Part shown: piece after piece, positions 7,818 through 44,476 of the stretch
How the letters are laid out: every line of letters begins with the position of its first letter
Numbering within the stretch: the first letter of the stretch is position 1
IMG/VR virus record: IMGVR_UViG_3300047334_000219
Location: 1-45,835 of that record
DNA from: a virus
Reading direction: 5' to 3' (one strand)
Length of the DNA stretch: 45,835 nt
Made by a program: the position numbers and the translations under genes
Notes under the pieces: generated by a model
The model's database searches: none
The model's input: the letters and a program-made list of their open reading frames with translations, nothing else
Told to the model about the DNA's origin: nothing

Positions 7818-9353
7818 TCACCATCCAGTGTAAGCATCGCCCTTCGCGGGCTCGGAAAAGTTCGGCAGAGCCGAATAGGAAAGCGGGTCGTAATCGACGA
7901 GGAGACTACGACCCGCTTTCCCAAATCGTCGCGATGCGACAGGGTAGGCAAAGGTGAGGGCTACGGCATCAGCCAAGTCGGGGGACTCCTTACCAGCCGC
8001 AGCCATGTCATCCTTTGAGACAAGGATCACCTCCTCTCTTTTGTTAAGGTAGTATTCGACCTCACAGAGCTGATCGTAGAGGTCGGAAGATTGGTCGATG
8101 GCGAGACCTTCCCGGATTGCGTCGCGGAGGAGGAGATACATCTCCGCCCGTTTGTTTGCGACGTGAATGCCGAGAGGGTTGGATGAAGGTTTCGAACCGA
8201 AGTTCACCCCGATTACGTGGTGGCCGAGGCTGCGAACAAAGTCCACAACCCCTCCGCCTACACCGCCTTCGTCGATGAACACTGCGTCTGGCTCGTAGGA
8301 CTTTATCCGAGCGGCAACGCGGGAACCTAGTTCGACAGTAGACAAGCCTCGGTAGCGTTCGATCGGAACGGTTCGCGCGTCCTTTCCCTGGCGGAAGGCG
8401 AGAACACTCTCGTTCGTACCGAACCGGGCTACGTCAACGCCGAGGACCTTCGGTTCCCAGTCGGTAACGATCACAGGGCGTGACTGAGCAATGGCTACGG
8501 ACTCCGGGGCGAACAGCGCCGATGCCTCGACGGAAGGAAATTCGCCCAGGTAGCGAACGCGAACGAAGTCCGAATCGAGTCCTTCCCGAGCTATCGCCCG
8601 GTTGATCTGTTCCTTATTCGTGAAGGAGACTTCGCGTGAATCTACCTTGTAGGTTATCCATTCATCACTGCGGGACTCAAAGCAATCGCGGAAACGGCCC
8701 GAGGCCTTTGTTGGGTTTCCAGCGACGAGCCAAACGATTTCCGTATCGGTGTCGAGGGTTGCCCCGTCGAGGGTTTCCCAGATTACATTTGGAATGGCGG
8801 ATGCCTCGTCGCAGATTACAAGGATTCGCTTTCCGTAGTTGTGAAGCCCGGCGAACGCCTCGGGATTGTCTTCCGACCAAGGAATGGCGTCGATTCGCCA
8901 GTTCTTCTCGTGCTCTGGGTCCGCCGCGACTACAGCGGTAGCGGTGACTTTGAAGAAGTCGCGAGCGATGAAGAGGCGGTGCCACTTCGCGACTTCAGGC
9001 CACAGAGTTCGGAGAAGCTGCTTCTCCGTGTTCGCCGTAACTCGACCCCGCGTGTCCACCGCCGTGGACATGGCCCACCAGATTATCCAGCAAACAAGTG
9101 CGGACTTACCAACACCGTGACCGGAGCGGATTGCGATTCGGATTGCTTCCGTCAGCGACATACCGGAAAGGAGATCAAGCTGAAGCTTTTGCAGAACTCG
9201 GGTTTGCCAAGGTTCCGGCCCGGAGCGAAGTTCCAGCGGAGTATTGGGCTCGCCCCACGGGAAGGCCCAGAGAACCCAGTCGTAAGGCCTCTGAGCTAGC
9301 GAAGCGAGGTCGTCGATGAGCTGGTCTTCGAGGGACTTAACTTTCGCCAGCAT
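7818..9353 (-). CDS. Terminase large subunit
   Basis: 511 aa from ATG 9353 (MLAKVKSLEDQ); longer upstream starts would extend into the small-subunit gene. It packages DNA into the prohead. ATPase: Walker A SGHGVGKSA, Walker B ILVICDEASAIPN. Nuclease: acidic residues in VLGVDVARFGTNES and VFIDEGGVGGGVVDFV, and DLADAVAL near the C-terminus, in an RNase H fold. The length and both domains are complete. It overlaps the small-subunit gene by 17 bases. The packaging type (headful, cos or direct repeat) cannot be judged from sequence alone. Confidence 0.92.
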   Translation of the reverse strand: MLAKVKSLEDQLIDDLASLAQRPYDWVLWAFPWGEPNTPLELRSGPEPWQTRVLQKLQLDLLSGMSLTEAIRIAIRSGHGVGKSALVCWIIWWAMSTAVDTRGRVTANTEKQLLRTLWPEVAKWHRLFIARDFFKVTATAVVAADPEHEKNWRIDAIPWSEDNPEAFAGLHNYGKRILVICDEASAIPNVIWETLDGATLDTDTEIVWLVAGNPTKASGRFRDCFESRSDEWITYKVDSREVSFTNKEQINRAIAREGLDSDFVRVRYLGEFPSVEASALFAPESVAIAQSRPVIVTDWEPKVLGVDVARFGTNESVLAFRQGKDARTVPIERYRGLSTVELGSRVAARIKSYEPDAVFIDEGGVGGGVVDFVRSLGHHVIGVNFGSKPSSNPLGIHVANKRAEMYLLLRDAIREGLAIDQSSDLYDQLCEVEYYLNKREEVILVSKDDMAAAGKESPDLADAVALTFAYPVASRRFGKAGRSLLVDYDPLSYSALPNFSEPAKGDAYTGW

Positions 9354-9891
9354 CTCTGAGCCTCCGCGTTGCGGCTTGGAGGCGGGAACCGAGGTCGGCG
9401 GATACGGATACGGAGACGCTGCGGGAGACCGGCGCATGGCCGGTGCGGTCTGCGGTGAGTTTCACGATCTCGATCACGGTTGAGGTCGAAATCGGATCAT
9501 CTTCGTTTTCCAGTCGATCATGAAGCTCCGTAACCGCGGCGATAGAAAGAAGCGCAGCGCGTTCTTGGAACTCAGCAAACGCGGCGTCTTTAACGTCGCG
9601 GTAGTGGGAAAGGAGTTCCTTGAACGCCGGGTCGGACTGGAGAATCGACACGGTACTTGGTGTATACCCGGTGAAAGCCGAAGCCTCGCCCGGAGTCATC
9701 CCGTTGGCCAGGGCTCTTGCCAGTGCGTGATGCCGGTCCCGGAGTTTGACTCGGGAAGGAGCCTTCGTCCCGCGCTCGCTTGCCAAAAGCGCGAGGTCTG
9801 ACTCTTCCATATCGCGGACAACCTCGACCGCGAGCGCCGCCGAGCGCCTACCGACAAGCCGCGTTCCGCCGATGTCAAGCTCCGGGACCAT
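9337..9891 (-). CDS. Terminase small subunit-like protein
   Basis: 184 aa from ATG 9891; a GTG at 9915 is an alternative start. A helix-turn-helix region (HALARALANGMTPGEASAFT, then GYTPSTVSIL) covers roughly residues 55-90. A long helical oligomerisation segment follows (VKDAAFAEFQERAALLSIAAV), and the C-terminal tail is basic (RLQAATRRLRD). This is the usual plan of terminase small subunits, which recognise the packaging site. It is the first gene of the late minus-strand arm and overlaps the large subunit by 17 bases. Residue-level family assignment is not certain. Confidence 0.8.
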   Translation of the reverse strand: MVPELDIGGTRLVGRRSAALAVEVVRDMEESDLALLASERGTKAPSRVKLRDRHHALARALANGMTPGEASAFTGYTPSTVSILQSDPAFKELLSHYRDVKDAAFAEFQERAALLSIAAVTELHDRLENEDDPISTSTVIEIVKLTADRTGHAPVSRSVSVSVSADLGSRLQAATRRLRDAGES

Positions 9892-9943
9892 GCTTCGCAA
9901 CGTACACCAGCTCACCGCCGTCGCAAAGTTCGCCGCGAACCCG

Positions 9944-9973
9944 CCATCTCAATCACGATGCTATCGAGCCATG
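9944..9973 (+). promoter_or_regulatory. CCATC-25-CCAT element, copy R1
   Basis: Fits the pattern CCATCTYRATC, 8 variable bases, ATCGAKCCAT, with exactly 25 bases between the two CCAT starts (9944 and 9969). It lies in the gap before the first early gene and upstream of the late arm. Confidence 0.55.
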
Positions 9974-10220
9974 CCGCAGCGCTTCGCGCTTCGTGCGAGA
10001 GGATGAGATGGGTCTTAGCCCCAGGGCGTGTATGGCTGGTTTGTTTCCCCGCGCGAGGGGGTACCCGGTCGTCGGGACGGGGGCGGCGAAGACTGGCTAA
10101 GGAAAATTTTCGACCACGGTCGGAGGGGCGGCAGGACGATCCCGAAGTTGTGATGAAAGGGGTTGAGATGGTCCATTTTCTGGGTTGACTTTGGTTTGGG
10201 ACTGGAGGATGGTGTGGATA

Positions 10221-10235
10221 CCGGAATGGTTCCGG
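10221..10235 (+). promoter_or_regulatory. Leader hairpin upstream of gene at 10250
   Basis: CCGGAA, loop TGG, TTCCGG: a perfect 6-bp stem ending 3 bases before the GGAG ribosome site (10239-10242). It could mark the 5' end of a stable message or modulate ribosome access. Confidence 0.45.
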
Positions 10236-10249
10236 GATGGAGTCACACC

Positions 10250-10669
10250 ATGTTACGTCAAATCACCATTGCGAAGTCTAAGACCGTTTCCGTCGACGAC
10301 GGGAAGTTCTCGAAGGCGGTGAATGAGTACATCTTCGCCTACGGTTTGAAGCAAGTTCTAAACGATGCCGGAAGTCAGGGGAAATCCGCGGAAGACAAGC
10401 TCGCGCTTGCGGAGAAGAAACTGGCGAAGCTTTACTCAGGGGATCTTGCAATCCATCGAACGACCGACCCAGTCGCGGCCGAGGCGAAGAAGATCGCAAT
10501 CGCCAAGGTCAACGCCGCGATTGCGAAGAAAGGGAAAAAGCCGGAGGACGTGGAGAACATTGGCGAACTTGTCGCCAAGGTCATGACGCAGACGGATGTT
10601 CAGGCAGAGGCTAAGCGCCGCGTTGATGCCGCGAACGCGGTGGAAATTGACCTAGACGATCTGCTTTAG
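10250..10669 (+). CDS. Early protein A, paralogue of the 19726 gene, 139 aa
   Basis: ATG 10250 is chosen because GGAG lies 7 bases upstream; longer starts run through the control region. The protein is helical and charged, with no catalytic motif. It aligns with the protein at 19726: both have a conserved block starting DPVA-EA, then a Lys/Ala-rich helix, then KKG, and both end in an acidic region (here EIDLDDLL). It is first in the early arm and is followed by its own terminator, so it forms a one-gene unit. An abundant early DNA- or protein-binding factor is plausible but unproven. Confidence 0.75.
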   Translation: MLRQITIAKSKTVSVDDGKFSKAVNEYIFAYGLKQVLNDAGSQGKSAEDKLALAEKKLAKLYSGDLAIHRTTDPVAAEAKKIAIAKVNAAIAKKGKKPEDVENIGELVAKVMTQTDVQAEAKRRVDAANAVEIDLDDLL

Positions 10670-10690
10670 TTCCTAGTGTAAAGACGGTTC

Positions 10691-10723
10691 GGCCGGGACG
10701 GGGCAACCTTCCCCGGCCTTTTT
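10691..10723 (+). terminator. Rho-independent terminator after early protein A
   Basis: GGCCGGG (10691-10697) pairs with CCCGGCC (10712-10718), followed by TTTTT (10719-10723). It lies 22 bases after the stop codon at 10669 and ends the single-gene unit. Confidence 0.85.
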
Positions 10724-10814
10724 GTGTCTGATTTCCCCGGATAAGCCGGTCCGTGGCGGGCGGAACGCGGTGCGTCGCACACGACACGCGGAACGCGGCG
10801 AAGCCCGTGCACGA

Positions 10815-10845
10815 CCATCCCACGGCGATTGTGAACCGCCATCTC
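10815..10845 (+). promoter_or_regulatory. CCATC element, weak copy R2
   Basis: CCATC at 10815 and CCATCTC at 10839, spaced 24 bases rather than 25, with a diverged centre. The second half continues CAATGG, as in other half-sites of this family. Less certain than the other copies. Confidence 0.3.
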
Positions 10846-10954
10846 AATGGCGTCGCCATGCCCGGCATGATCCCGGCGTTTCACTTGGGCGATTCCTGAT
10901 TCCCCCTCGTGATTCCGGGGTACCGTAAAACCCATGCTTTGGGGGGGTGTCGAG

Positions 10955-10984
10955 CCATCTCGATCGTCGTGTGATCGAGCCATC
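10955..10984 (+). promoter_or_regulatory. CCATC-25-CCAT element, copy R3
   Basis: CCATCTCGATC at 10955 and ATCGAGCCATC ending at 10984, with 25 bases between CCAT starts (10955 and 10980). It lies in the left arm of the dyad. Both this and R4 read the CCATCT motif in plus orientation, although the arms around them are inverted. Confidence 0.6.
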
Positions 10985-10989
10985 TCGGT

Positions 10990-11020
10990 GTCTCCCCGTA
11001 TAAATAAGTTGCGGGGAGAC
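10990..11020. repeat. Hairpin GTCTCCCCG/CGGGGAGAC
   Basis: Perfect 9-bp inverted repeat (10990-10998 with 11012-11020). The 13-base loop is A/T-rich and contains TATAAATAA. No T-run follows it directly on the plus strand, so it is not a clear terminator. Confidence 0.7.
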
Positions 11021-11054
11021 CCCCACTAAAAAAGTGTTCACGTTTTGTTCTTGA

Positions 11055-11078
11055 TTTTTTTTTTTTTTTTTTTTTTTT
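11055..11078 (+). repeat. Run of 24 T
   Basis: Uninterrupted T24 close to the centre of the 378-bp dyad. Its exact length may suffer from sequencing error. Such tracts are easily melted or intrinsically bent and can be hypervariable. Confidence 0.85.
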
Positions 11079-11113
11079 AACTCTCTCAGAGAAAAACGGG
11101 GGGAGGGTATCAG

Positions 11114-11143
11114 CCATCTTGATCACACGACGATCGAGCCATC
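11114..11143 (+). promoter_or_regulatory. CCATC-25-CCAT element, copy R4
   Basis: CCATCTTGATC at 11114, then ATCGAGCCATC; CCAT starts are at 11114 and 11139 (25 bases apart). It lies in the right arm of the dyad, 246 bases before the early gene at 11389. Confidence 0.6.
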
Positions 11144-11265
11144 TCGACACCCCCCAAAATACCCCTCTTTACGGCAGCCTGGAATCATCAGGAAGAATCA
11201 GGAATCGTACGGGGGAAACGCCGGGATCATGCCGGGCGCATGCATTGCATCGGCATGGGCCGAAA

Positions 11266-12024: not shown

Positions 12025-12579
12025 ATGCTAATCCACGGGATCGAGTGGGAAATTAAACCCTATGTTGACCTCAAGGGAGCCGATCTTAGGGAAGCCAACC
12101 TCAGAGAAACCGACCTCAGAGAAACCGACCTCAGCGGAGCAAACCTCAGAGGAGCAAACCTCAGAGGAGCAAACCTCTTCAGAGCAAACCTAAGCGAAAC
12201 CGACCTAAGCGAAACCGACCTCAGAGGAGCAAACCTCTTCAGAGCCAGCCTCTTCAGAGCAAACCTCAGCGGAGCCACCCTCAGAGGAGAAAACCTCAGA
12301 GGAGCCAGCCTCTTCGGAGCCAAAATAGGCCCATACATCATTGCTAGCCTCTGTGGCCGCGCATTTCGGTCTGACGGCCACGAGTTTCTGCAATTCAAGC
12401 TACAGCCCTCAAAGGATCAACCCGAACAGTATCTCATACGGGCGGGATGCCGGACGTACACGCCTCTGGAGTTCTGTGACCATGTCGCAGGGAATTATCC
12501 CAATACGCCTAAAGCAACGGAGACGCTACTAATCCTCAATTACCTCGCGGAGTATCGGACCTTGGAGGCTTGGAGCTAA
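12025..12579 (+). CDS. Pentapeptide repeat protein, 184 aa
   Basis: ATG 12025. Residues about 15-100 are an almost perfect run of pentapeptides A(D/N)LXX (for example ADLRE, ANLRE, TDLRE, SGANL, RGANL), which fold into a right-handed quadrilateral beta-helix. The C-terminal 80 residues form a separate domain (CGRAFRSDGHEF, PEQYLIRAGCRTYT). Some pentapeptide proteins (Qnr, MfpA) mimic DNA and bind gyrase; a similar anti-host or DNA-protection role is possible but not shown. The DNA is a 15-bp tandem repeat, so copy number may vary. A long minus-strand frame over it is only a shadow of the repeats. Confidence 0.88.
   Translation: MLIHGIEWEIKPYVDLKGADLREANLRETDLRETDLSGANLRGANLRGANLFRANLSETDLSETDLRGANLFRASLFRANLSGATLRGENLRGASLFGAKIGPYIIASLCGRAFRSDGHEFLQFKLQPSKDQPEQYLIRAGCRTYTPLEFCDHVAGNYPNTPKATETLLILNYLAEYRTLEAWS
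12070..12315 (+). repeat. 15-bp tandem repeats encoding pentapeptides
   Basis: Near-identical 15-base units (GAAACCGACCTCAGA and GGAGCAAACCTCAGA types) repeat along the pentapeptide gene. Recombination could add or remove coils of the beta-helix. Confidence 0.8.
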
Positions 12580-16798: not shown

Positions 16799-16840
16799 AT
16801 GCTGGAATGTCCCCATTGTCACGGAACGGGCAAGGTTTAA
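16799..16840 (+). CDS. 13-aa CxxC mini-protein
   Basis: ATG 16799, with GAGGGG just upstream, reads MLECPHCHGTGKV and stops at 16840. The motif CPHCHGTGKV is half of a DnaJ-type zinc module (C-x2-C-x-G-x-G). The peptide could bind zinc by dimerising or complete a zinc site in a partner. Too short for usual gene callers. Evidence is a strong ribosome site, the motif and the absence of any other use of the gap. Confidence 0.45.
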   Translation: MLECPHCHGTGKV

Positions 16841-16860
16841 CTTTCAGAAGGGATTACCCA

Positions 16861-17559
16861 ATGACCACTGTTACCACAGCCGCTGAAGCCTATCAGCGCT
16901 ATACCGAATACCTTCACGACAAACGCCTTATTCAGTCAAAATGGCATGACATTACCGATGACGGTCGCGCGCTTGCGTGTGGGCTTGGAGTTTTGGGCGA
17001 AAACGTATCGTCTCCGCAAGATTGCCCAGCCACCATCATGCCGAAATGGCTCGCTCAGATGGTTCCTTGGTTTTTTGATAACCAAGACGCCAAGCAAGCA
17101 AAATCTTGGGGCTTGGAGTTTTACGCCGAACTTGCTCGATTGAATGGCTTTGTTCCGTTCAGTGTCGTTTACGATTGGCAGGCTACTGTCGTGGGTCCAC
17201 TCGCAATTGAACAGGCTGAAGCGCGCAACGGTGATGTGAGCGCTCATCGCGCGTTAGCGGAAATGCAATTTGCCGCGTTAAACGGAAAAACGTTTTCGGC
17301 CGATGAGTGGCGGCCAATTCTTAAAGCGGCATTTTTGGATATCCACAAGTTCAGCTATCACTTCAAAGCCGACGCCGACTCCGACGCTAACGTTTACGCC
17401 GACGCCAACTCTTATGCTTACGCCGACGCTTATGCTTATGCTAACGTCAACGCTTATGCTTACGCCAACCCCGACGCCAACTCTTATGCTAAATACCGCG
17501 AGAAAATATCCTGTTTTGCAGCAGGTATGGTGGAATGTCTTAAGCGCGTGTCGGCATGA
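16861..17559 (+). CDS. 232-aa protein with (D/N/Y/S)-Ala dipeptide repeat
   Basis: ATG 16861 with AGAAGGG upstream; an in-frame start at 16807 lies in the mini-gene. The N-terminal domain (about 1-165: DDGRALACGLGVLG, MPKWLAQMVPWFFDN, WGLEFYAELARL) looks folded; residues about 170-212 are a chain of DA, NA, YA and SA dipeptides, followed by a short helix (ISCFAAGMVECLKRV). Ala-dipeptide tracts of this kind occur in a family of phage proteins of unknown function. The tract may vary in length by slippage of its 6-bp unit. Confidence 0.75.
   Translation: MTTVTTAAEAYQRYTEYLHDKRLIQSKWHDITDDGRALACGLGVLGENVSSPQDCPATIMPKWLAQMVPWFFDNQDAKQAKSWGLEFYAELARLNGFVPFSVVYDWQATVVGPLAIEQAEARNGDVSAHRALAEMQFAALNGKTFSADEWRPILKAAFLDIHKFSYHFKADADSDANVYADANSYAYADAYAYANVNAYAYANPDANSYAKYREKISCFAAGMVECLKRVSA
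17370..17493 (+). repeat. Degenerate 6-bp tandem repeat encoding Ala dipeptides
   Basis: Units such as GCCGAC, GCTTAT and GCCAAC alternate; the partner codon is nearly always (G/A/T)A(C/T) or TC(C/T). About 20 units, so slippage between copies is likely. Confidence 0.75.
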
Positions 17560-19405: not shown

Positions 19406-19665
19406 TGGCATTAACCCAGCTATCTCCCTCAATCCCAATGTCAACCCCTCACGGTATCGGCTACGCTTTCGCAGTAATTGACTATTCTCAGGAACACCAT
19501 CTTCTCTGGGTAATTGCAATAGAGTCTTCAGGCGAAATTTGGTGCGTTCCGAATCCGCAATGCCGTGTCCTTCCCAACTATTCCCTTTCCCTAAAACCGC
19601 CAGCAACCGACCCATCTCAATCACACGGCAATCGATCCATCCCCGATCCTGGAAACCTTGCTTGA
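19405..19665 (+). CDS. Hypothetical protein whose 3' end contains the R5 element, 86 aa
   Basis: ATG 19405 overlaps the previous stop (TGATG). The first 60 residues look folded (GIGYAFAVIDYSQEHHLLWV, IWCVPNPQCRVLPNYS). The last 25 (from KPPATDPSQSHGNRS) are encoded by DNA that carries the CCATC-25-CCAT element and look like read-through of a regulatory site. The true protein may matter less than the DNA at its end. Confidence 0.55.
   Translation: MALTQLSPSIPMSTPHGIGYAFAVIDYSQEHHLLWVIAIESSGEIWCVPNPQCRVLPNYSLSLKPPATDPSQSHGNRSIPDPGNLA
19612..19641 (+). promoter_or_regulatory. CCATC-25-CCAT element, copy R5
   Basis: CCATCTCAATCACACG at 19612 and ATCGATCCATC, with CCAT starts at 19612 and 19637 (25 bases). 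It is the only copy far from the control region and lies 85 bases before the paralogue of the gene at 10250, matching the arrangement of R1 and that gene. Confidence 0.6.
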
Positions 19666-19725
19666 CAGCCCGGCCAAATGCGCCCATATTAAAAGTCGCC
19701 AACCGGCCCCAAAGGATAGATACCA

Positions 19726-20283
19726 ATGCCGCAGATTCACGATTCCACCCCGCGCGATGAAATAACCATTGCCGGACATATCCACACCGTTCCCCACCCG
19801 TACCACGAAGGGCACGTTCTCACCGCGAACGAGGCCAAGGCCTTAAACCAAACTTTCGGCGAGAATCTACGCAACAACCTCGCTTCAAAGCTCAAGGAGC
19901 TTCTCGAAGCCGGCAACTACGAAGCCGCTTCCTTCCAAGCCACTGTCGACGACTACGCGAAGACCTACGAGTTCGGTCAGCGTTCCAGCGGCAGCGCTCG
20001 TGGCCCACGCCTCGACCCTGTGGCGAAGGAAGCCCTGGACCTGGCTAAGGCAAAGCTCACCGAGGCTCTGCGCAAGAAGGGCAATTCCCCCTCGGACATG
20101 TCCGCAGCGGATTTCACTTCCCTGGCGAAGCAAATTCTCGAGAAGCATCCTGCGCTCATGGAACTCGCCCGCGAGCGTGTCGCAGCGGTGCAAGCCGTCG
20201 CCGATATCGAGATCGAAGGCCTTTCGGAAAATTCCCCTTCCGAAGAGTCTTCGAAGCCGCAGCGCAAAGCGAAAGCTGCGTAG
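19726..20283 (+). CDS. Early protein B, paralogue of the 10250 gene, 185 aa
   Basis: ATG 19726 after AAAGGATAG. Residues about 100-165 align with early protein A: DPVAKEALDLAKAKLTEAL and the following KKG, then a helical block ending in an acidic segment (ADIEIEGL). The N-terminal 40 residues (IHTVPHPYHEGHVLTANEA) are extra, and a basic tail (KPQRKAKAA) follows. Like protein A, it has a CCATC element upstream and a strong terminator just after. The two loci look like duplicated cassettes. Function unknown; a nucleic-acid-binding helical protein is plausible. Confidence 0.75.
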   Translation: MPQIHDSTPRDEITIAGHIHTVPHPYHEGHVLTANEAKALNQTFGENLRNNLASKLKELLEAGNYEAASFQATVDDYAKTYEFGQRSSGSARGPRLDPVAKEALDLAKAKLTEALRKKGNSPSDMSAADFTSLAKQILEKHPALMELARERVAAVQAVADIEIEGLSENSPSEESSKPQRKAKAA

Positions 20284-20379: not shown

Positions 20380-20592
20380 TTGCTCGAATATCTCTACCAA
20401 GCGCTCCGCGCCGATATCGGAATAGTTCTTCGTTCTGATAACGCCCAGCTTCTGCAACAGCGCCTATACCGCGCAAGGACAGAAGCTGGCGACGAAGCCC
20501 TCGCATGTCTGTCTTTCGTCCCATCGCCGACAGACCCTTCGCAACTCTTTATCCTTAAAAGGAGGCCTAATGGCAATTCGGAAGGAGTCTGA
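20380..20592 (+). CDS. Conserved phage protein of unknown function, 70 aa
   Basis: TTG 20380 (LEYLYQALRADIGIVL after it) is the best start; no ATG is available. The pattern ALRADIGIVLRSDN, QQRLYRARTEAGDEAL and SFVPSPTDPSQLFI-like ending is one I associate with a widespread small phage family (without a defined function), usually near replication genes. It overlaps the next start by 23 bases. A ribosome site is weak, so expression may depend on the TTG. Confidence 0.65.
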   Translation: MLEYLYQALRADIGIVLRSDNAQLLQQRLYRARTEAGDEALACLSFVPSPTDPSQLFILKRRPNGNSEGV

Positions 20593-20776
20593 GCCACTTC
20601 AACGGGTTACACTTTCGCTTTACAAGAAGGACTACCAGCGGATGCTGGACATATACCCTGTAGTCGGGGCAGCGAAAGTTATCCGAATGCTTGTTCACCA
20701 GCACGTTTCTAACCTTTCCCAGAAAATCGAAGATAAACTTGAACTGATAGAAGAACTGGAGCTTGAAATTGACTGA
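20570..20776 (+). CDS. Possible ribbon-helix-helix protein, 68 aa
   Basis: ATG 20570 with AAAAGGAGG 5-12 bases upstream, the strongest ribosome site nearby. Residues 10-50 (RVTLSLYKKDYQRMLDIY, then AAKVIRMLVHQHV) show a short strand followed by two helices, as in ribbon-helix-helix DNA-binding proteins. The C-terminus is an acidic Leu/Glu helix. It could regulate the replication operon it begins. Assignment is by pattern only. Confidence 0.6.
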   Translation: MAIRKESEPLQRVTLSLYKKDYQRMLDIYPVVGAAKVIRMLVHQHVSNLSQKIEDKLELIEELELEID

Positions 20777-23556: not shown

Positions 23557-23623
23557 CCCGTCTGCGCAACCTGCATAGTGGTTGGGTTGGCGGGCTACCG
23601 CTTTTATTTCGTCGGGGGGAACA

Positions 23624-24868
23624 ATGACTACCGGACAATTCGCTTCAGTTGAAATCTCTTCAATTCAAATCATTCGTTCTGAACGTACCCGCCGGGAACT
23701 TCGGCCGGAAGATATTCGATCTCTCGCAGATTCAATTCGCGATCGAGGTCTAATCCATCCACCTCTTGTCACACGCGATCTAGTCCTGATCGCCGGAGAA
23801 ACTCGACTTGAGGCCTGCCGCAGTCTCGGATGGACTTCCATATCCGTCCAGTACGCAGATACCGCCGACCCGAAGGAACTTCTCGCTCTTGAACTCGAAG
23901 AGAATGTGAAGCGGAAGGATATATCTTGGCAAGATCAGGCCATCGCTCTAAAGCGGTTCCACGATCTTCAAAAGGAACTCCACCCCGACGGATGGTCAAC
24001 CTATAAAACAGCCGAAGCTATAAACCTTTCCCAAGCCTTCGTGTCTCAGCACATCGCCGTAGCAGAGGAACTAGAGTCCGGCAATGAAAGAGTTATTTCA
24101 GCCCCAAAGTTCTCCGTCGCTTCCGGCATCACTTCTAGAGTTAGAGAACGCCGAGCGGCTGACGAGCTTGCTTCTTTGGGGACCGGTTTGGATAAAGGTT
24201 CGAGTTCAATCCTCACCGCAGATTTTCTTTCTTGGGTTGAGTCCTATTCAGGACCTTCGTTCAATCTTATCCACTGCGACTTTCCCTACGGAATAGGTGC
24301 GGATACTTTTAACCAGGCTTCGGCCGATCTCCGCGGAGGATATGATGATACTCCAGAGACGTACTTTACGCTTCTTGAAACTCTGTGTAGAAATAGAGAT
24401 AAACTCATGGGTGAATCAGGTCATCTTATCTTCTGGTTTTCCATGCAGCACTATTCAAAAACGCTCGACATACTCAACAACTATTTTCGAGTGGAAAGTT
24501 ACCCTCTTGTTTGGCATAAGTCGGACAATAAGGGCACTCTTCCAGACCCAACCAGGGGTCCCCGCCGTGTTTACGAAGTCGCCTTCTTTGCCTCGCATGG
24601 AGATAGAAAAATACTTCAGTCTGTCGCTAACACATTCTCAGGCCCGACAGTTAGGTCGGCGGATCACATGAGTGAAAAGTCTCAAGACATGCTTGAGCAC
24701 TTCTTCCGCATGGTCGTGGACAGTAAAACCAGAATTTTAGATCCGACCTGCGGAAGCGGTTCAGCAATCCGGGCAGCGAAGCGCCTCGGCGCCGAGTTCT
24801 TTCTTGGTCTAGAAAAGAATCCCGACTTCGCCTCCGCCGCGCAAAAGGCTTTGAAAGAAAATGTCTGA
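23624..24868 (+). CDS. ParB-like domain fused to DNA methyltransferase
   Basis: 414 aa from ATG 23624 (GGGGGAACA leader). Residues about 1-100 are ParB/Srx-like (LIAGETRLEACRSLGW; ELEENVKRKDISWQDQAIAL), followed by an HTH-like stretch (TAEAINLSQAFVSQHIAVAEE). The methyltransferase part has motif IV as IHCDFPYG and motif I as DPTCGSGSAIRAAKRL near the C-terminus: IV before I is the beta-class order of CcrM-like enzymes, modifying adenine N6 or cytosine N4. The DFPYG motif is a variant of DPPY. It may protect phage DNA or mark specific sites. Overlaps the next gene by 8 bases. Confidence 0.85.
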   Translation: MTTGQFASVEISSIQIIRSERTRRELRPEDIRSLADSIRDRGLIHPPLVTRDLVLIAGETRLEACRSLGWTSISVQYADTADPKELLALELEENVKRKDISWQDQAIALKRFHDLQKELHPDGWSTYKTAEAINLSQAFVSQHIAVAEELESGNERVISAPKFSVASGITSRVRERRAADELASLGTGLDKGSSSILTADFLSWVESYSGPSFNLIHCDFPYGIGADTFNQASADLRGGYDDTPETYFTLLETLCRNRDKLMGESGHLIFWFSMQHYSKTLDILNNYFRVESYPLVWHKSDNKGTLPDPTRGPRRVYEVAFFASHGDRKILQSVANTFSGPTVRSADHMSEKSQDMLEHFFRMVVDSKTRILDPTCGSGSAIRAAKRLGAEFFLGLEKNPDFASAAQKALKENV

Positions 24869-26149: not shown

Positions 26150-27645
26150 GAAAATACTTCACCGATGGAAGCGAGAATCTTCCAGCTTCTGGCGCAACGG
26201 AAAAGCTTTGGATCTACAACGGTTTAGACTGTTGCGTAACCCTTGAAGTTCTTAACGCAGTTAAACCCCAGCTTAACGAAGTCACTTCTAGAGTCTACGA
26301 CTTCGCCAGAGCCCTCCAGGCCCCGATCCTCGAAATGGAATGTCGGGGACTTCTTGTAGACAAAAGCAAAAGGAACGAAGTTTATGAGCAACTATCTTTA
26401 CAACTCAAGATCGTTCACGATTCGCTTGCTGAAATCCTGTCTGAAGGTCTTGGAGTTGAAAACCTTAACCCCTCTTCCCCAGCTCAACTCAAACAGCTCT
26501 TCTATGAAACACTTGGACTTCCTCCTGTCCGAAATAGAAAAGGAGTTACAACGGATAGAAAAGCTCTCGAACGACTCCGAGGATACTTCCAAGCCGAGTG
26601 CATCTGCAACCACATTCTCCTCATCCGAGATATCAATAAAAAGCTTGGAGTTCTACGTACAGGCATTGATTCCGATGGAAGGATCAGAACGTCATATAAC
26701 ATTGCTGGCACCGATACCGGAAGACTATCTTCCTACGCTTCAGCATTTGGCTCGGGAACAAATTTACAAAACATTACCGGAGAACTCCGCTACATCTTCG
26801 TCGCCGATCCAGGAAAAAAGCTCGCCTACATCGACCTCGAACAAGCCGAGTCGAGAGCAGTTGGAGCTATTATATGGAACCTCTTCCGCGACGGCCGATA
26901 CCTCGACGCCTGCGAAAGTGGAGACTTACACACAATGGTCTGCCAGCTTTGCTGGCAGGACCTCCCATGGACTTCCGATCCAAGCGAAAATAAACTCATT
27001 GCCAAACAACCGTTCTACCGCCATTTCGACTATCGCGATGCCGCTAAGCGTCTTGGGCACGCTACTAATTACTTTGGAAAACCACCGCACATCGCGAAAG
27101 AGGTTCATATTCCTCAGCCGCTCGTCGAGCAATTCCAGCAGAAATATCTTCCAGCTTTCGGGATTAGTACATGGCACAACTGGGTACGTAGTAAACTTTT
27201 TCGAGATGGATTCATCAACACTTTTATGGGACGCCATCGTTGGTTTTTTGGCAGAAGGACAGACAGCGAAACAATCCGGGCCGCAATTGCGTTTGAACCT
27301 CAAAGTGCTGTCGCAGATTATCTCAACCGAGGATTATTTCAAGTGTGGAGATCTAACCTTGTTGAACTTAATCTCCAGGTGCACGATGCAATAGTATTCC
27401 AATACCCGGAGGAAAAAGAAAATGAGATAATTCCTCAAGTCCAGAAGCTTCTCGAGATAGAAATCCCCCTCATGCACGGTCGATCTTTCCGCATACCTAC
27501 CGAAGCTTTTGTAGGTTGGAATTGGTCGTATTCCCGCAACGCGAAGAAAGAGTTAATCAATCCCGATGGCCTCGAGCTTTTCACAGGAAACGATACCAGG
27601 AAACGCTCAACGCCGACTTCATTCCTTCATCGACGGTTTTCTTGA
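26146..27645 (+). CDS. Family A DNA polymerase, with Exo III motif at its N-terminus
   Basis: 499 aa from ATG 26146. The start carries WIYNGLDCCVTLEV, the exonuclease Exo III motif (Y-x3-D) that completes the split 3'-5' domain of the 24861 gene. Polymerase motifs: DTGRLSSYASAFGSGTNLQN; motif A YIDLEQAESRAVG; motif B RDAAKRLGHATNYFGKP; motif C LQVHDAIVFQY (catalytic Asp kept, usual Glu is Ala). It replicates the phage DNA. The gene overlaps the next one by 80 bases. The residues between the Exo pieces are missing from both ORFs and lie at a loop. Confidence 0.9.
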   Translation: MRKYFTDGSENLPASGATEKLWIYNGLDCCVTLEVLNAVKPQLNEVTSRVYDFARALQAPILEMECRGLLVDKSKRNEVYEQLSLQLKIVHDSLAEILSEGLGVENLNPSSPAQLKQLFYETLGLPPVRNRKGVTTDRKALERLRGYFQAECICNHILLIRDINKKLGVLRTGIDSDGRIRTSYNIAGTDTGRLSSYASAFGSGTNLQNITGELRYIFVADPGKKLAYIDLEQAESRAVGAIIWNLFRDGRYLDACESGDLHTMVCQLCWQDLPWTSDPSENKLIAKQPFYRHFDYRDAAKRLGHATNYFGKPPHIAKEVHIPQPLVEQFQQKYLPAFGISTWHNWVRSKLFRDGFINTFMGRHRWFFGRRTDSETIRAAIAFEPQSAVADYLNRGLFQVWRSNLVELNLQVHDAIVFQYPEEKENEIIPQVQKLLEIEIPLMHGRSFRIPTEAFVGWNWSYSRNAKKELINPDGLELFTGNDTRKRSTPTSFLHRRFS

Positions 27646-28807
27646 ACTGACAGACGGTATCCAGTCGCCGCTTCTTTTTAGAAAGTGGGCTGCGATCTAC
27701 ACCGTCGCTTCTGTTCTTGAAAGAAAAGTCTGGATAAAAACTCGGCGTGGACCTATGTATCCAAACTTGTATGTCCTTCTCGTCGGAGGTCCAGGGATAG
27801 GTAAGTCTGAATCTCTTCACCAGGTAATGAAACTTCTAGACTCCGTCCCGGATATATTCCTTGCCCCAAGTTCTGTATCTCGAGCATCGCTTATCGATGA
27901 ACTTTCGGAGGCCCATCGGCAAATTCTTCGGCCGATGGACACGCCCCCGCTCACACAGTTTAACTCTCTCAGCGTCGTTGCCTCAGAGTTCGGAACATTC
28001 CTATCCGCTTACGATGGGGAGTTCATGTCTACCCTTAACCATCTATTCGACTGCGAACGCTATAAAGAAAAGAAGCGGTCGATGAAGAATAAGATAGAGA
28101 TGCCTAATCCCCAGCTCAATATAATTGCCGGAACAACTCCAGCTTGGCTCGGAGCATCCCTTCCTCCGACAGCTTGGTCAGAGGGTTTCGCTTCCCGCCT
28201 TATCATGATTTACTCGGGCGAGCGAGTTAGGATAGATATGTTTGCAGATGCGGAGTCTGACGAAGCAATTCGGTCCGCTTGTATAGAAGACTTAAAATCT
28301 ATTTTTGAAATGTTCGGCCAGTTTGTCTTCACCCCGGACGTTGCGGAAGCTTTCTATGCATGGCAGGAACTTGACTTCGCACCTGTGCCAGACCATCCAA
28401 AATTAGAACACTATATTCCTCGCCGCCACACACATTTTTTGAAAATCTGTATGGTAATGTCTGCGGCTAGATCTTCCGAACTTATAATCCGTATGGAAGA
28501 CTACCAAAAAGCTATGGACTTTTTTCTTGAAGCTGAGGCAGAAATGCCAGAAGTCTTCAAAGCGCTTCGGTATAACTCTGATGGAAACGTCATAGACGAA
28601 GCTTTTAATTTTGTATACACTACTTTCGCGAAAGAAAATAAACCTATTTCAGAACACAGAATAATGAACTTTCTTCTTCAGCGTATGCCCGCGCACAATG
28701 TCGCCAAGTGTCTCGACATAATGCTACAATCGGGGATCATTGAAGTAGCTGAAATCGGAAAAGGTCTTGGCGGGAGGAATACATATCGACCTCCCGCCAA
28801 GCGTTAG
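27566..28807 (+). CDS. DUF3987-like ATPase (replicative helicase/primase type)
   Basis: 413 aa from ATG 27566, which lies inside the 3' end of the polymerase gene; the frame is well supported downstream. Walker A VGGPGIGKSESL at about 73-84; a mixed-charge segment after it (VSRASLIDELSEAHRQ) and a region with NPQLNIIAGTTPAWL and FASRLIMIYSGERV resemble DUF3987/DnaB-like phage proteins that load or unwind DNA at the fork. C-terminal helices could bind primase. It ends the early arm; its stop overlaps the opposing spanin stop. Confidence 0.75.
   Translation: MASSFSQETIPGNAQRRLHSFIDGFLELTDGIQSPLLFRKWAAIYTVASVLERKVWIKTRRGPMYPNLYVLLVGGPGIGKSESLHQVMKLLDSVPDIFLAPSSVSRASLIDELSEAHRQILRPMDTPPLTQFNSLSVVASEFGTFLSAYDGEFMSTLNHLFDCERYKEKKRSMKNKIEMPNPQLNIIAGTTPAWLGASLPPTAWSEGFASRLIMIYSGERVRIDMFADAESDEAIRSACIEDLKSIFEMFGQFVFTPDVAEAFYAWQELDFAPVPDHPKLEHYIPRRHTHFLKICMVMSAARSSELIIRMEDYQKAMDFFLEAEAEMPEVFKALRYNSDGNVIDEAFNFVYTTFAKENKPISEHRIMNFLLQRMPAHNVAKCLDIMLQSGIIEVAEIGKGLGGRNTYRPPAKR
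28766..28801 (-). terminator. Terminator hairpin at the end of the late arm
   Basis: CTTGGCGGGAGG (28766-28777) and CCTCCCGCCAAG (28790-28801), a perfect 12-bp stem with a 12-base loop. On the minus strand it is 2 bases after the spanin stop and is followed by ACCTTTTCC; on the plus strand there is no T-run. It sits inside the 3' end of the opposing early gene, so it must end late transcripts without blocking that gene's coding. Confidence 0.7.
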
Positions 28808-33100: not shown

Positions 33101-33165
33101 CCCAAAACCAAATACACCAAAGCCAAAGCTGGACAGAGTAAAAAAGCTTTAAAAGATTTCTTCAT
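30097..33165 (-). CDS. Tail fibre with T7-like N-terminus and S74 intramolecular chaperone
   Basis: 1022 aa from ATG 33165, overlapping the previous stop (ATGA). After a hydrophobic start (MKKSFKAFLLCPALALVYLV; SPase-like site near AKA), residues about 35-160 resemble the T7 tail fibre N-terminal domain (LQGNGVTTSFSYNFLIPYQ, FYPHTIEQIADWLELQIQQL). A long Gly/Ser/Thr/Asn-rich shaft follows. The C-terminal 131 residues are an S74 peptidase-type chaperone; self-cleavage is expected at SSDARLK (Ser-Asp, near 893), and a coiled coil (IQELHDIVKKQQAEIADLKQ) ends it. The receptor-binding tip lies before the cut. The N-terminal signal-like helix is unusual for a fibre. Confidence 0.88.
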   Translation of the reverse strand: MKKSFKAFLLCPALALVYLVLGYCAPAKATVATSAYTTTLQGNGVTTSFSYNFLIPYQAGTTTPAVVVQVTNTATGIVTNLSSTAYTISGVGNATGGIVTYAPLGVPLASGNTITITRAVPYTQPTAVLNQSFYPHTIEQIADWLELQIQQLQYEGSTASASSISVGSTSIQGGTSGNIEVNAGGLLGEIGTTGTGNAVLASGATLNSPNLITPNLGTPSAINLTNATGLQSSEVITALGYTPPTPTGSGASGTWGINVTGNAATATTASAAPLSGLMGTGTGVLTAAANPVNTAGGLVTYGGAIGTPTINISAATGLTASQVDTAIGGTPCLVGGSCGGSGAAGLNGQIQINSGGALAGTSTGSGVLAALGNSVDSGGGLASYSGLTANYLPVSGGSINNTVYFTNSSTNNINGPVGTGTGAPNYNYIIGGNGSIQLKASGASLYLGNKNAVNSPFIVFYTSGNGVNDCVISPSGGSTSGLLGSLTFNCNGGYIFNGQANFNYTPLVNGTPLANSSATYSAGSCLQLSGTVFSLQSSCNVTTGYAALAGANFIGPVNGTLESFYGSGWQYLGSSNSSTFPAGTSAGGLGVAWNATGGQAEVDFLNETNLGDPSGFAFYQQPSGTGTPTQIAYLGSTKDTFPEPIYETGSTNTLSCPVNFDSNSPTAASCQISSTVAGGNKSQWGSMISTTTNANSTSGAEGGSLYVANNCLSGAPTCWGMSLATMFQPGAKNGQVMEMVAGNASCDPGVPWAPNTGCATQVSGFLIDGVGNSSAGVYPNLAALYLVNSSAGTIYHAGIMMGNNPGGASSISDAGIADYTQDTTVYRVGNSHTHFYTPQTSTGLVASYSGTMWDSAFTAGDSTLSGAILSATNSAAVCNGTPSTSGFNWSCSSDARLKTDYGLDGDELAYINSLPIDRYKIDATGEITVGPIAQKLQKIHPEMVHEVEDDLIPADKENAAGTMLSVDQPDIWKLTRAIQELHDIVKKQQAEIADLKQREARDARLIASLQKRRLHSGGKRDR

Positions 33166-36100
33166 TTCGAGTTCTCCATTTTAGCTTTTATCCTGTCTTG
33201 CCGACGAACAAGCATATCTTCCGCTTTAGCTTCAAGCGTTTCCTGATCCTTCTGCGGACCTCCTACAATTCCTGTTACAAAGCCCCAAGGCGAAGCTGGG
33301 CGTTCCCGACCTGTTGCAAAATCAGAAATATACTGTCCTGCTTTTCCTACCGTGTGTCCTGGAAATTTTCCAGCAGAAAACCAACCAACAGTATCTAGTG
33401 CGTGTTCAATAAATCTCGGCGGAACCTGTCCGTCGTGATCATGCCAATACGCAGTATCTTTGGCCGTTTGATAAACTGACTTACCTGCTTGCACAATTCC
33501 GGTTCCCGAGTCGTCTTCACCGAGCGCCGCGGCGACGAACTGGTGTAGAAGAGGAATACCAGAAAATGGCTGATAAATCAAGGCTTTTGCCAAACCAGCA
33601 ACCCAGGTCTCTGCTTTTTTCCTTTGGCCTTTAGTCACTTCTTCAATTATAGCTGTAATGAGAATGTAAGCAAAAGTATTTCCTGCCGCATAGGCAAAGT
33701 CTCTTCTTGCTCCAGCATAATCTCCTTCGCCGGCTTTCTTCGCGCCGGAGCCTATAGCTTGAGGAATTTCCCGTGTCCGATTATACATGTGGTTAAATAA
33801 AGTTAGAAACCGATTAGTCATTGCCCAAAGCTGCCCCGGCACATCGTTACTGGCCCGGAGTGCCGTTGGCTGATCTATCTTTCCGCCTGATCCGTGGGCT
33901 TGCCGGACTGCCTGGTCGGCAAGTCGAAACGCCCGTTCAGGATCAGGATTTTGTGCCAGGGCCCGTGCTTCCGCTGCAAGCCAAGTTGGAATTGCAGAGA
34001 ACTGATCCGACCAGCCAACAAGGTGGAAAGCATACTTTCCAACCAGGCTCATTACTCCCTGTTTCTCAAGAAGGTTCAGGTATGCTGTGCGGGCCTGTTC
34101 ATTTGCGTTGAGAAGGCGATGACGAATTTCTGGTGAGTTCTTACTTACATAGTCTATAAGCTTTAAATCTTTTGCCAATCGCTGATACTGAGAAAGAAGT
34201 GGAACCAATCCAACCTCATTCACACTTGCAGCAAATGCGCCGCTAGCGTGCTTCATCAGTGTTTTTACCGAGTACCCGATGAAGTTTGTCATAGTTGAAT
34301 TGTTTATATTATTCAACATGTTGGAGACAAAGTCGTTTTTGTTCAGACTCGTTCCTTCTGCCCCGGCAATGGCTCTTAGCCAACAGTCTATTTGAGGCAA
34401 GTATTCCGGGCCATACCTGAAAGCTATAGCTTTTCTAACCGCACTGTCAGTTAAAATTTTATTAGCGTTTATCAGCACATCTCGGTAAGCTAGATCATGA
34501 ATGACTTGATTAAGGCGGTAATGCACCCCATCTAAGTTCATCCGAACCGGAGAAGCAAATCCAGTTCTTTCCTTGGCGTAGCTGTTACTCGGCGTGGCCC
34601 GGATATAGTCCTTCTGTCCCAGAAACTCCATTGGGTCCATTTGATCCCGGACACTTTTCGGAAGCGACTCGTAGTCGTAAAGTACGGGGAAGTATCCTCC
34701 GGAGAATTTACCAAAGGAAGTTTTAACTTCCCGCGGAACAACAAAGCTCGGAGCAACTCCAGTTCTTGCCCTGTACTGCTGTTCAATTTCCGGCTGAAGT
34801 TTACCAAAGGCATCCCAAATTCCTTGGGCAAACTTCCACCCTTGCTCTGTCATCCGCGTCATAATCATTTTTTCAGTAGCAACCGGATCGAAATTAAACC
34901 CACGGTTAAACTTGTCCCAAGCTGCAGCGTCGCCGTAGTGCAGCGCGGCGATTAGAATATCCTTGTTTGTTCCGAACAACCTGTTTCCGTCACTGTCGAG
35001 GAATGCAGGTTCTTCAACCCGAACCTTCAACCAACTGTCAAAACCTTTTCCAAGTTCTTTATTCAAGTCGTGGAAGTGTTGCGCCAGTTCAACTCGTCTG
35101 TCATCTGACCAACCCTTCCGGGATTGGATATCCATGACGATGGAATTAGCAACACTGTCTGGATCTCTTCCGCCGAGGTCGAGAAACAATTGTTCCGCGC
35201 GGACTAACCAAGCGTCGGCGAATCTTCGGGAACTTTCAACTTTATTTAGCCAAGTTGGATTTTGAATTTCCTGCCGATCTATATACTTTTCCCTAAGCTC
35301 TAGCCGATGAACGAAATCGAAAATAGCCTTCTGCAGTTCTATTTCTTCTTCACCCTTTTTAAATAAACCTTCAAGTCTTCCCTGAGTCGCAAGAGAAGAA
35401 ATCATTTGTTGAAGACCAGTGAATTCTGAAACAAGCAGTTTCGAAGGTCCATCTGCAGGAAGAACCCGCGCATTTATCAAATCTGCGCCTTCAGTAATCT
35501 TACTGTTGATAAAGTCCGTTAGAGACTTTCCACCGAGACCTTTTTCTAGATCGACTCGGTTTCGATTTATTGGATAGCCTATTTGATTTAACGTGGCGTG
35601 AATGTGGTTTAGATATTCTTGGGACAGACCCTCGATAGTTGAATTTCTTGCAAAACGCGCCCACTGTTTTTCCGTTTTACTAAAAAGCTTATTCAAGTCG
35701 TGAGACATTTGAAGCATGTGACTGTTTATTAGCTGTTGCGTCTTAGCCTTAAACGCTTCGGGAACTTTACCTTTCAGCAAAGCTACTTCCGCATTCCGAC
35801 CTGTCCGCATAGCAGTACGTTCAAAGTCTTTAATCCGCAGCGCCGAGCGAACTTCCATTCCATCGAAAAGCTGCTGCGCGCGGTTCGTAATGTCTGCTTC
35901 TTCAAACGGCCGACCGATTTGTTTTGAAAGAGCTTTTAGTTCCTGGGCAAGAAAATCTGTAAGCTTCGGTGTGTTGAGCGCTTCACTCGCGGCTTGTTTA
36001 ATTTCCTCTGGAGTAATTCGATAACCGAGTTCATCCCGAACTCGGTTCGCAGTCTCTTCCTCGACAAGAGATTTGAAATGTCCCCGAGCATCATTCCCAG

Positions 36101-43721: not shown

Positions 43722-44476
43722 TAGTCGCCCCAGGAAGAGTTGTCGTAACCGGAATACCAATCGCCGAAGCCGGACCATGGGCCGCCGAGGCCGTAAGTTG
43801 CGCTGGCTGGATCGCCGCGAGTTGCTATCCAGTCAGGAACATGATCGACAGTTGGCCGGGCTTCGTTCCCGTCCATGGCCCGAGCATCGGTAATGTACTG
43901 CATAGCGACTTGTTCAAGACTCGTCTTCATTCCCACGTTACCAGTAAGGGGAATTACAAGCCTTGCCGCAAGCGCAGCGACCAAAGCTTCATAGAAAGCA
44001 TCATCGAACTGATCTACGTTTTGAATATCGGCAGTGTATACTCCAAGAGCATTCCATACGTTTGTAAGAAGAACTATAGTTCCGTTAGGCACATCGTTTG
44101 CTTTTAGAAATCTGTTCTTCCGGGAAGGCATCCAACCTCGGTCGAAGGGCCAGTCGGAAACATTCGGTTGTCCCGTGTTAGTAGCAAATACTGGTTGGTG
44201 TAGAACATATCGAAATTTAAGACAGTCAGAAGGGTACTGATACTTAAATGGCCAAGGGTAGATAGACGTGTTTTCGAAAAGAGTGCCAAGGAGGGAAAGG
44301 GATACTTGCTCCCGGGCGAAGCCCCAAGGCGCAGCTCGAAGAAGTTTCTTTCTAATCCGATCGTAATGTATCGTACATTGCGCAACTTCTACTGACGCTT
44401 CATCAGTACTTTGCACAGTTGCACGAGCACCACATTCACTTAGCGCTCCATTCCAAATGTCTATTACCGAGGCCAT
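43721..44476 (-). CDS. Tail tubular protein A (gp11-like)
   Basis: 251 aa from ATG 44476. The start (VIDIWNGALSECGARATVQS), with RIRKKLLRAAPWGFAREQVS and a Trp/Pro-rich segment (IYPWPFKYQYPSDCLKFRYV), fits gp11-type proteins that join portal and nozzle. Slightly larger than T7 gp11. Translation is coupled to the next gene by a TAATG overlap. Confidence 0.88.
   Translation of the reverse strand: MASVIDIWNGALSECGARATVQSTDEASVEVAQCTIHYDRIRKKLLRAAPWGFAREQVSLSLLGTLFENTSIYPWPFKYQYPSDCLKFRYVLHQPVFATNTGQPNVSDWPFDRGWMPSRKNRFLKANDVPNGTIVLLTNVWNALGVYTADIQNVDQFDDAFYEALVAALAARLVIPLTGNVGMKTSLEQVAMQYITDARAMDGNEARPTVDHVPDWIATRGDPASATYGLGGPWSGFGDWYSGYDNSSWGD

Follow-up and report, generated by a model that had tools for sequence, protein, structure and literature searches.

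Iteron origins, such as those of the lambda O system, the Stx phages and plasmids, consist of repeated sites next to replication genes and a tract rich in AT. In the omega/parS system of plasmid pSM19035, each dimer of the small ribbon-helix-helix (RHH) protein omega binds one 7-bp repeat, and a pair of dimers binds repeats in direct or inverted order. According to parts of PMC9499535, the omega sites are 7–10 contiguous 7-bp repeats that overlap promoters, site order may be direct or inverted, and the sites at promoters serve transcription as well as plasmid maintenance. The stoperators of cluster A mycobacteriophages, as described in sections of PMC6550527, are asymmetric 13-bp sites dispersed over the genome, mostly in one orientation and mostly away from promoters, with a consensus that drifts between related phages. 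Papillomavirus E2 is a single viral protein that binds palindromic sites near the origin and the early promoter; the spacer of these sites is fixed in length and free in sequence (parts of PMC3161962).

The element analysed here appears, from comparison across a podophage family, to be a real, family-specific regulatory element. Repeat sites for a phage regulator or initiator are a known theme, of which this is a new variant in its architecture and in its double placement. The open-access literature (subscription papers lying outside the search) does not describe it under iteron or inverted-repeat phage origins or poly-T long inverted repeats, and holds no match for dispersed palindromic operators combined with an origin. 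Searching with the consensus letters returned, among the matches listed, macrophage and mammalian immunology and no bacteriophage.

The window is the whole virus record, a podophage genome of 45,835 bases (IMG/VR IMGVR_UViG_3300047334_000219). Its minus strand encodes a podophage-type head-tail connector, the capsid, the large terminase (terL) and tubular tail proteins. The replication block lies on the plus strand and comprises a UvrD-type helicase (14331), a PD-(D/E)XK nuclease (20990), a Sak4-like protein (22264), a ParB N-terminal domain fused to an N6/N4 DNA methyltransferase (ParB_N-methyltransferase, 23582–24868), a UDG-like protein (24861), DNA polymerase A (26146) and a DUF3987 P-loop protein (27566–28807). 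Between 24861 and 27645 the polymerase-linked module is present as separate genes for the UDG-family protein, an 85-aa ORF and DNA polymerase A. Tandem 15-bp repeats occupy 12068–12323 within ORF 12025–12579, whose product presumably resembles a pentapeptide-repeat protein; low-complexity 18/24-bp repeats lie at 17372–17492 in ORF 16807–17559, and a 1590-aa virion-region protein (33162–37934) has an LPD22 domain close to its N-terminus. Megablast of 24 kb of the window against phage records gave no match. Relatives were gathered through terL and helicase searches, the latter with an alignment as query, since the helicase as single query returned one locus. The closest named phage by terL, UFJF_PfDIW6, was dropped as a relative in layout: it is temperate, its arrangement differs and its strongest inverted repeat scores just 30.

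The sequence-only reading had reported a CCATCTC-type pattern with 25 bases between CCAT starts at four places. All four copies are present without mismatch on the plus strand (9944–9972, 10955–10983, 11114–11142 and 19612–19640), against 0.01 matches expected from 100 shuffles of the window; a copy with three mismatches lies at 37717 on the minus strand. Because that pattern was built from the copies themselves, a fairer test used a consensus drawn from relatives only (GAGCCATACC boxes). This consensus finds exactly four direct pairs at spacing 25, the same four copies, compared with a mean of 0.14 and a maximum of 1 in 100 dinucleotide shuffles. The top count in any orientation at spacings 12–24 and 26–40 was 3. 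The four copies are real and more frequent than chance would give, and the 25-bp element is kept across the family. A CCAT pair at 10815 with spacing 24, put forward as a weaker copy, does exist; it scores below threshold and is probably no element. Minus-strand CCATCTC half-sites had been placed near 10005 and 10165, where both are found. Two ATGG boxes 24 bp apart on the minus strand (10008–10035) form a weak or degenerate pair below the standard of the other copies. Over the whole window CCATCTC occurs 13 times on the plus and three times on the minus strand (shuffle mean ∼ 2.6 each), an excess that the elements account for in part only.

The relatives' boxes have the sequence GGTATGGC or GCCATACC, and the family element is a pair of boxes, each reading CCATAY or the reverse, at a distance of exactly 25 bp and in either orientation. 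TATGGC...GCCATA pairs number 17 at box spacing 25 and one in total over the other tested spacings. A scored search at spacing 25 gave 45 inverted and 28 direct pairs, compared with 2–12 and 5–18, respectively, at 19 other spacings. Divergent pairs show no such excess (10 at spacing 25 versus 2–11 elsewhere). Boxes that occur in either orientation at a fixed spacing are what an RHH operator would be expected to show. The fixed spacing from which a protein binding two half-sites had been suggested is kept, at 25 bp, across the family; the boxes differ from ordinary oriented half-sites in that they may be direct or inverted without a change of spacing.

Between the boxes lies an inner dyad centred exactly midway (57.7 per cent Watson–Crick, z 14.6), with none of 16 alternative centres above z 2.4. 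Five inner pairs that lie outside the scoring are Watson–Crick in 157 of 235 cells. At the best inner pair, 42 of 47 are Watson–Crick and none is G–T. For this analysis and that of promoter offsets, elements scoring below 24.5 were dropped, except the window's four, as was a weak match in the window at 44448, and duplicates were collapsed. The dyad sequence varies between genomes and is often alike inside one genome: the window has CTCRATC...ATCGAG, L187 has CCTTTA... and the related L158, L159 and L166 have ATAAA...TTTAT. Outside the left arm (see below) and with the window excluded, all nine direct copies scoring at least 24.5 lie on the early-coding strand; three weaker direct copies (24.0) do not. 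Dispersal, a prevailing orientation and a drifting consensus recall the stoperators. In contrast to their asymmetric 13-bp sites, which sections of PMC6550527 place mostly off promoters, the element is 29 bp long, has a central dyad and takes a fixed place before promoters.

In IMG/VR, an exact scan for inverted pairs returned 13 contigs (control spacing, one). Nine are known family contigs or carry homologues of the window's packaging, capsid or replication proteins; two have tail homologues alone and two have none. The original CCATCTC-type pattern had no exact match in IMG/VR, because relatives use CCATAC, not CCATCTC. The same kind of exact scan, run over 84,980 bacterial and archaeal genomes, found 31 hits, scattered and near the estimated chance number, one of which (L254) is in a contig with family phage proteins.

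The copy at 19612 has the best-defined setting. It lies 22 bp upstream of a sigma-70 type promoter, TTGACA-N17-CATATT (19662–19690, plus strand), with the −35 starting 50 nt past the opening base of box 1; downstream, the replication operon begins with a gene of an uncharacterised family (19726–20283, plus strand, 185 aa). Among 64 distinct homologues of this gene with enough upstream sequence, 18 have the element at spacing 25 within 300 bp upstream, compared with 0–5 of 64 at 14 other spacings and 17 of 1280 random windows; the remaining 46 genomes have no recognizable element there. Promoters were inspected at 20 loci picked for having a match; 18 of 64 is the unselected count. A −35 hexamer starts 46–52 nt, typically 48–51, from the first base of box 1 in nine cases, against 0.47 expected over 112 sides, in a set that includes nine elements from the IMG/VR and the bacterial and archaeal pattern scans. 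Single cases at offsets 60, 61 and 70 correspond to one and two helical turns further. A fixed position upstream of the −35 is the arrangement of a Class I type activator. Given the usual distance from −10 to start, the centre of the element would fall near −71 of the replication-operon promoter. No promoter at offset 46–52 was found for the window copies at 9944, 10955 and 11114. The L254 element stands ahead of the small terminase gene (terS) with a promoter at offset 48; the 9944 copy is likewise ahead of terS, ∼ 51 bp upstream of its start codon, without a good promoter. Other copies lie in short spacers, immediately before the ribosome-binding sites of early genes.

Two further copies belong to a long imperfect inverted repeat, the strongest of the genome, located between terS (9337–9893, minus strand, assigned by its position adjoining terL and by synteny) and the early genes; the terminase genes run left of this region and the early genes right. 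Its arms span 10860–10979 and 11118–11237, with 83% complementarity over 10860–10929 and 86% over 10938–10979. Near the centre is a T24 tract (11055–11078, plus strand), the window's sole homopolymer of 9 or more. The copies at 10955 and 11114 sit in opposite arms and bracket T24. Mirroring between the arms is good apart from the CCAT boxes, whose plus-strand reading is CCAT in both. Adjoining the repeat is a gene for a 139-aa paralogue of the 19726 product (10250–10669, plus strand), separated from it by a terminator-like hairpin (10699–10715, plus strand); such hairpins are weak evidence, two being found against 3.3 expected from shuffles.

Relatives keep the order of terS, an inverted repeat around a homopolymer tract, and early genes. 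A tract of at least 10 is present in 38 of 80 helicase loci, reads T on the helicase strand in all 38 and sits at the locus's strongest inverted repeat in 29; in five of the other nine it lies at the locus edge. G014 has an AT repeat, (AT)n, at the centre instead. The arm repeats differ between clades. AGCCATA, the box word, is the most enriched 7-mer of the origin-like regions (26 of 55 versus 3.7 expected, P 5e-14), and in several genomes two box pairs flank the tract. The word is absent from 29 of the 55 regions, some of which have other repeats (G019/G017, G014, L020). Close to the T tract of L151 and L159 we noted TTATCCACA, which we take to be the DnaA-box word. Contigs begin or end in or beside the tract, from either side, in L085/L087 (G005), L005, L006, L009, L019, L125, L146 and L168. 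In the isolated Caulobacter phage Kuura (L123), 43037–43330 holds an A12 tract flanked on one side by GGGCAGTT repeats and on the opposite side by AACTGCCC; no CCATAC box is found at this tract.

We put the odds that the inverted repeat is a replication origin at about even, with a terminal-repeat or packaging role as the less probable alternative. An origin is favoured by the repeated sites, the AT tract, the place before the replication genes and the element shared with the operon promoter. As in iteron origins, several copies crowd a short intergenic region (two pairs, 10955–11142, with similar arrangements in relatives) beside an AT-rich tract that could unwind, namely T24 here, the homopolymer of 38 of the 80 helicase loci, and (AT)n in G014. 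Unlike the iterons, these sites have an inverted arrangement about a homopolymer tract and form part of a long imperfect inverted repeat, the same element also stands at a promoter, and the initiator is putative. GC skew has an extremum within 1.7 kb of the tract in five of nine genomes, with the sign usual for a terminus and not for an origin; a skew switch is a supporting sign of iteron origins rather than part of their strict definition. Sharing of 9-mers between the origin region and the operon promoter is weak and mixed, the window having no shared words and Kuura being negative (the rows for L146 and L168, with the tract at a contig edge, are meaningless). The DUF3987 protein shows a weak match to a winged-helix domain at its C-terminus (PF07106, E 8e-4) and is a possible initiator or helicase; a role as an initiator like P4-alpha was considered and is kept as a lead only.

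The leading candidate for the binding protein is the 68-aa product of 20570–20776 (plus strand), which has an RHH pattern by eye. It is favoured because symmetric dimers would explain orientation-free boxes and because it is encoded in the replication operon itself. Homologues were matched in 41 of 80 helicase loci, many of which are too short to reach the gene. The AlphaFold model (pLDDT 89) has an extended stretch at residues 11–18 and helices at 19–28 and 34–67. Foldseek gave no significant match with this model (best E 9.6); among three chains compared with VIA-align, the best match was the omega repressor (1irq), with a weak Z of 4.5 over 46 residues (rmsd 2.5). The likeness to omega lies in a small RHH-like protein as candidate, in sites that tolerate either order and in their place at promoters, with family membership resting on this weak structural match. 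The sites differ in build: in place of contiguous 7-bp repeats overlapping a promoter, as parts of PMC9499535 describe them, a dyad lies between two boxes set 25 bp apart, and the element stands upstream of the −35 and again at an origin-like repeat. A distance of ∼ 8–8.5 bp separates the centres of box, inner arm, inner arm and box, as would fit four dimers side by side. The sequence-only reading had named both this protein and a wHTH-like protein (25892) as possible binders; of the two we consider the RHH-like protein, whose family was the one compared, the better candidate. The 19726 family was considered as an alternative binder, because G017 (a partial contig) and G019 lack both gene and box. 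It has homologues in most relatives and a confident AlphaFold model (pLDDT 89), is without a known DNA-binding fold and had no PDB match by sequence or fold search.

The conserved 25-bp spacing, the exact dyad, the origin-like inverted repeat and the fixed promoter distance all favour the original suggestion of a phage regulator or origin-binding protein. In our reading, to which we assign a probability of about 0.5 on these sequence data, the element is the DNA site of a phage-encoded regulator acting at the replication-operon promoter and at the origin-like repeat. Each copy would present two outer CCAT boxes, in either direction and 25 bp apart around the inner dyad, and each box would be covered by a two-fold symmetric dimer, probably of the RHH type, which would account for orientation-free boxes at fixed spacing. 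Bound at 19612, near −71, the regulator would most likely activate, or otherwise set, transcription of the replication operon; an activating rather than a repressing role is suggested by this position. The copies in the arms (10860–11237) that bracket T24 would most likely mark a replication origin and help to open it. More specifically, we speculate, tentatively and with some doubt, that a symmetric-dimer RHH protein reads the outer boxes together with the phage-private inner dyad, sets the promoter from about −71 and organizes the origin, in an E2-like coupling.

It is also conceivable, though rather unlikely, that the element is purely a transcriptional operator and that the T-tract repeat is either a divergent control region or a structure unrelated to it, the copies there being operators too. 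The best-defined place of the element is indeed its promoter position, and the copies before early-gene ribosome-binding sites resemble dispersed operators, but no word is more enriched around the T tract than the box word, several genomes have two pairs flanking the tract, and no promoter is found there at the usual offset. If instead the inverted repeat and its boxes served packaging or terminal repeats, as a terminase recognition site or as a hairpin that primes repeat duplication, this would explain why the region abuts terS in those fetched relatives that show both, and why the L254 copy lies ahead of terS. Kuura has a 606-bp direct terminal repeat determined by PhageTerm (parts of PMC9959647), which starts ∼ 53 bp from its A12 tract, and the copies at 9944 and 10955 would flank such a repeat in the window. 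A packaging role is nevertheless improbable: the replication-promoter copy (19612 and its homologues) would have no part in it, the Kuura tract lacks the CCATAC box, and contig ends approach the tract from both sides while several contigs, the window included, run across it, a pattern that suits assembly trouble more than a fixed end.

That the element acts as a nucleic-acid hairpin, either a cruciform or RNA, rather than as a protein-bound dyad is very unlikely. The inner arms stay self-complementary in spite of sequence differences from genome to genome, and start codons closely follow some copies; yet the complete absence of G–T at the best inner pair argues against RNA, which would tolerate G–U, outer boxes in direct repeat cannot pair mutually, the 19612 copy is upstream of its own promoter, and an Rfam search gave no match. 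Outer boxes common to many phages, with variable inner arms, could in principle reflect a host transcription factor. To this we give only the slightest chance, since the matches in bacterial and archaeal genomes are scattered and close to their estimated chance number, the one with family phage proteins apart.

The phage-encoded regulator remains our preferred reading. Since the element stands both at the probable origin and ahead of the operon promoter, a single viral protein may control the start of DNA copying and the promoter of the replication genes. If true, this would be a bacterial-virus counterpart of papillomavirus E2, one factor coupling gene expression to origin firing; there is no homology between the two, and host domain, protein fold and site all differ. 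Orientation-free boxes at a fixed spacing around a drifting dyad form an unusual code, which bears on how symmetric dimers read DNA and on how the regulators of related phages stay distinct. The T-tract repeat predicts where assemblies break and where an origin or genome ends should be sought. A large, almost wholly uncultured podophage family thereby gains a testable control circuit, made up of a site, a promoter, a probable origin and candidate proteins.
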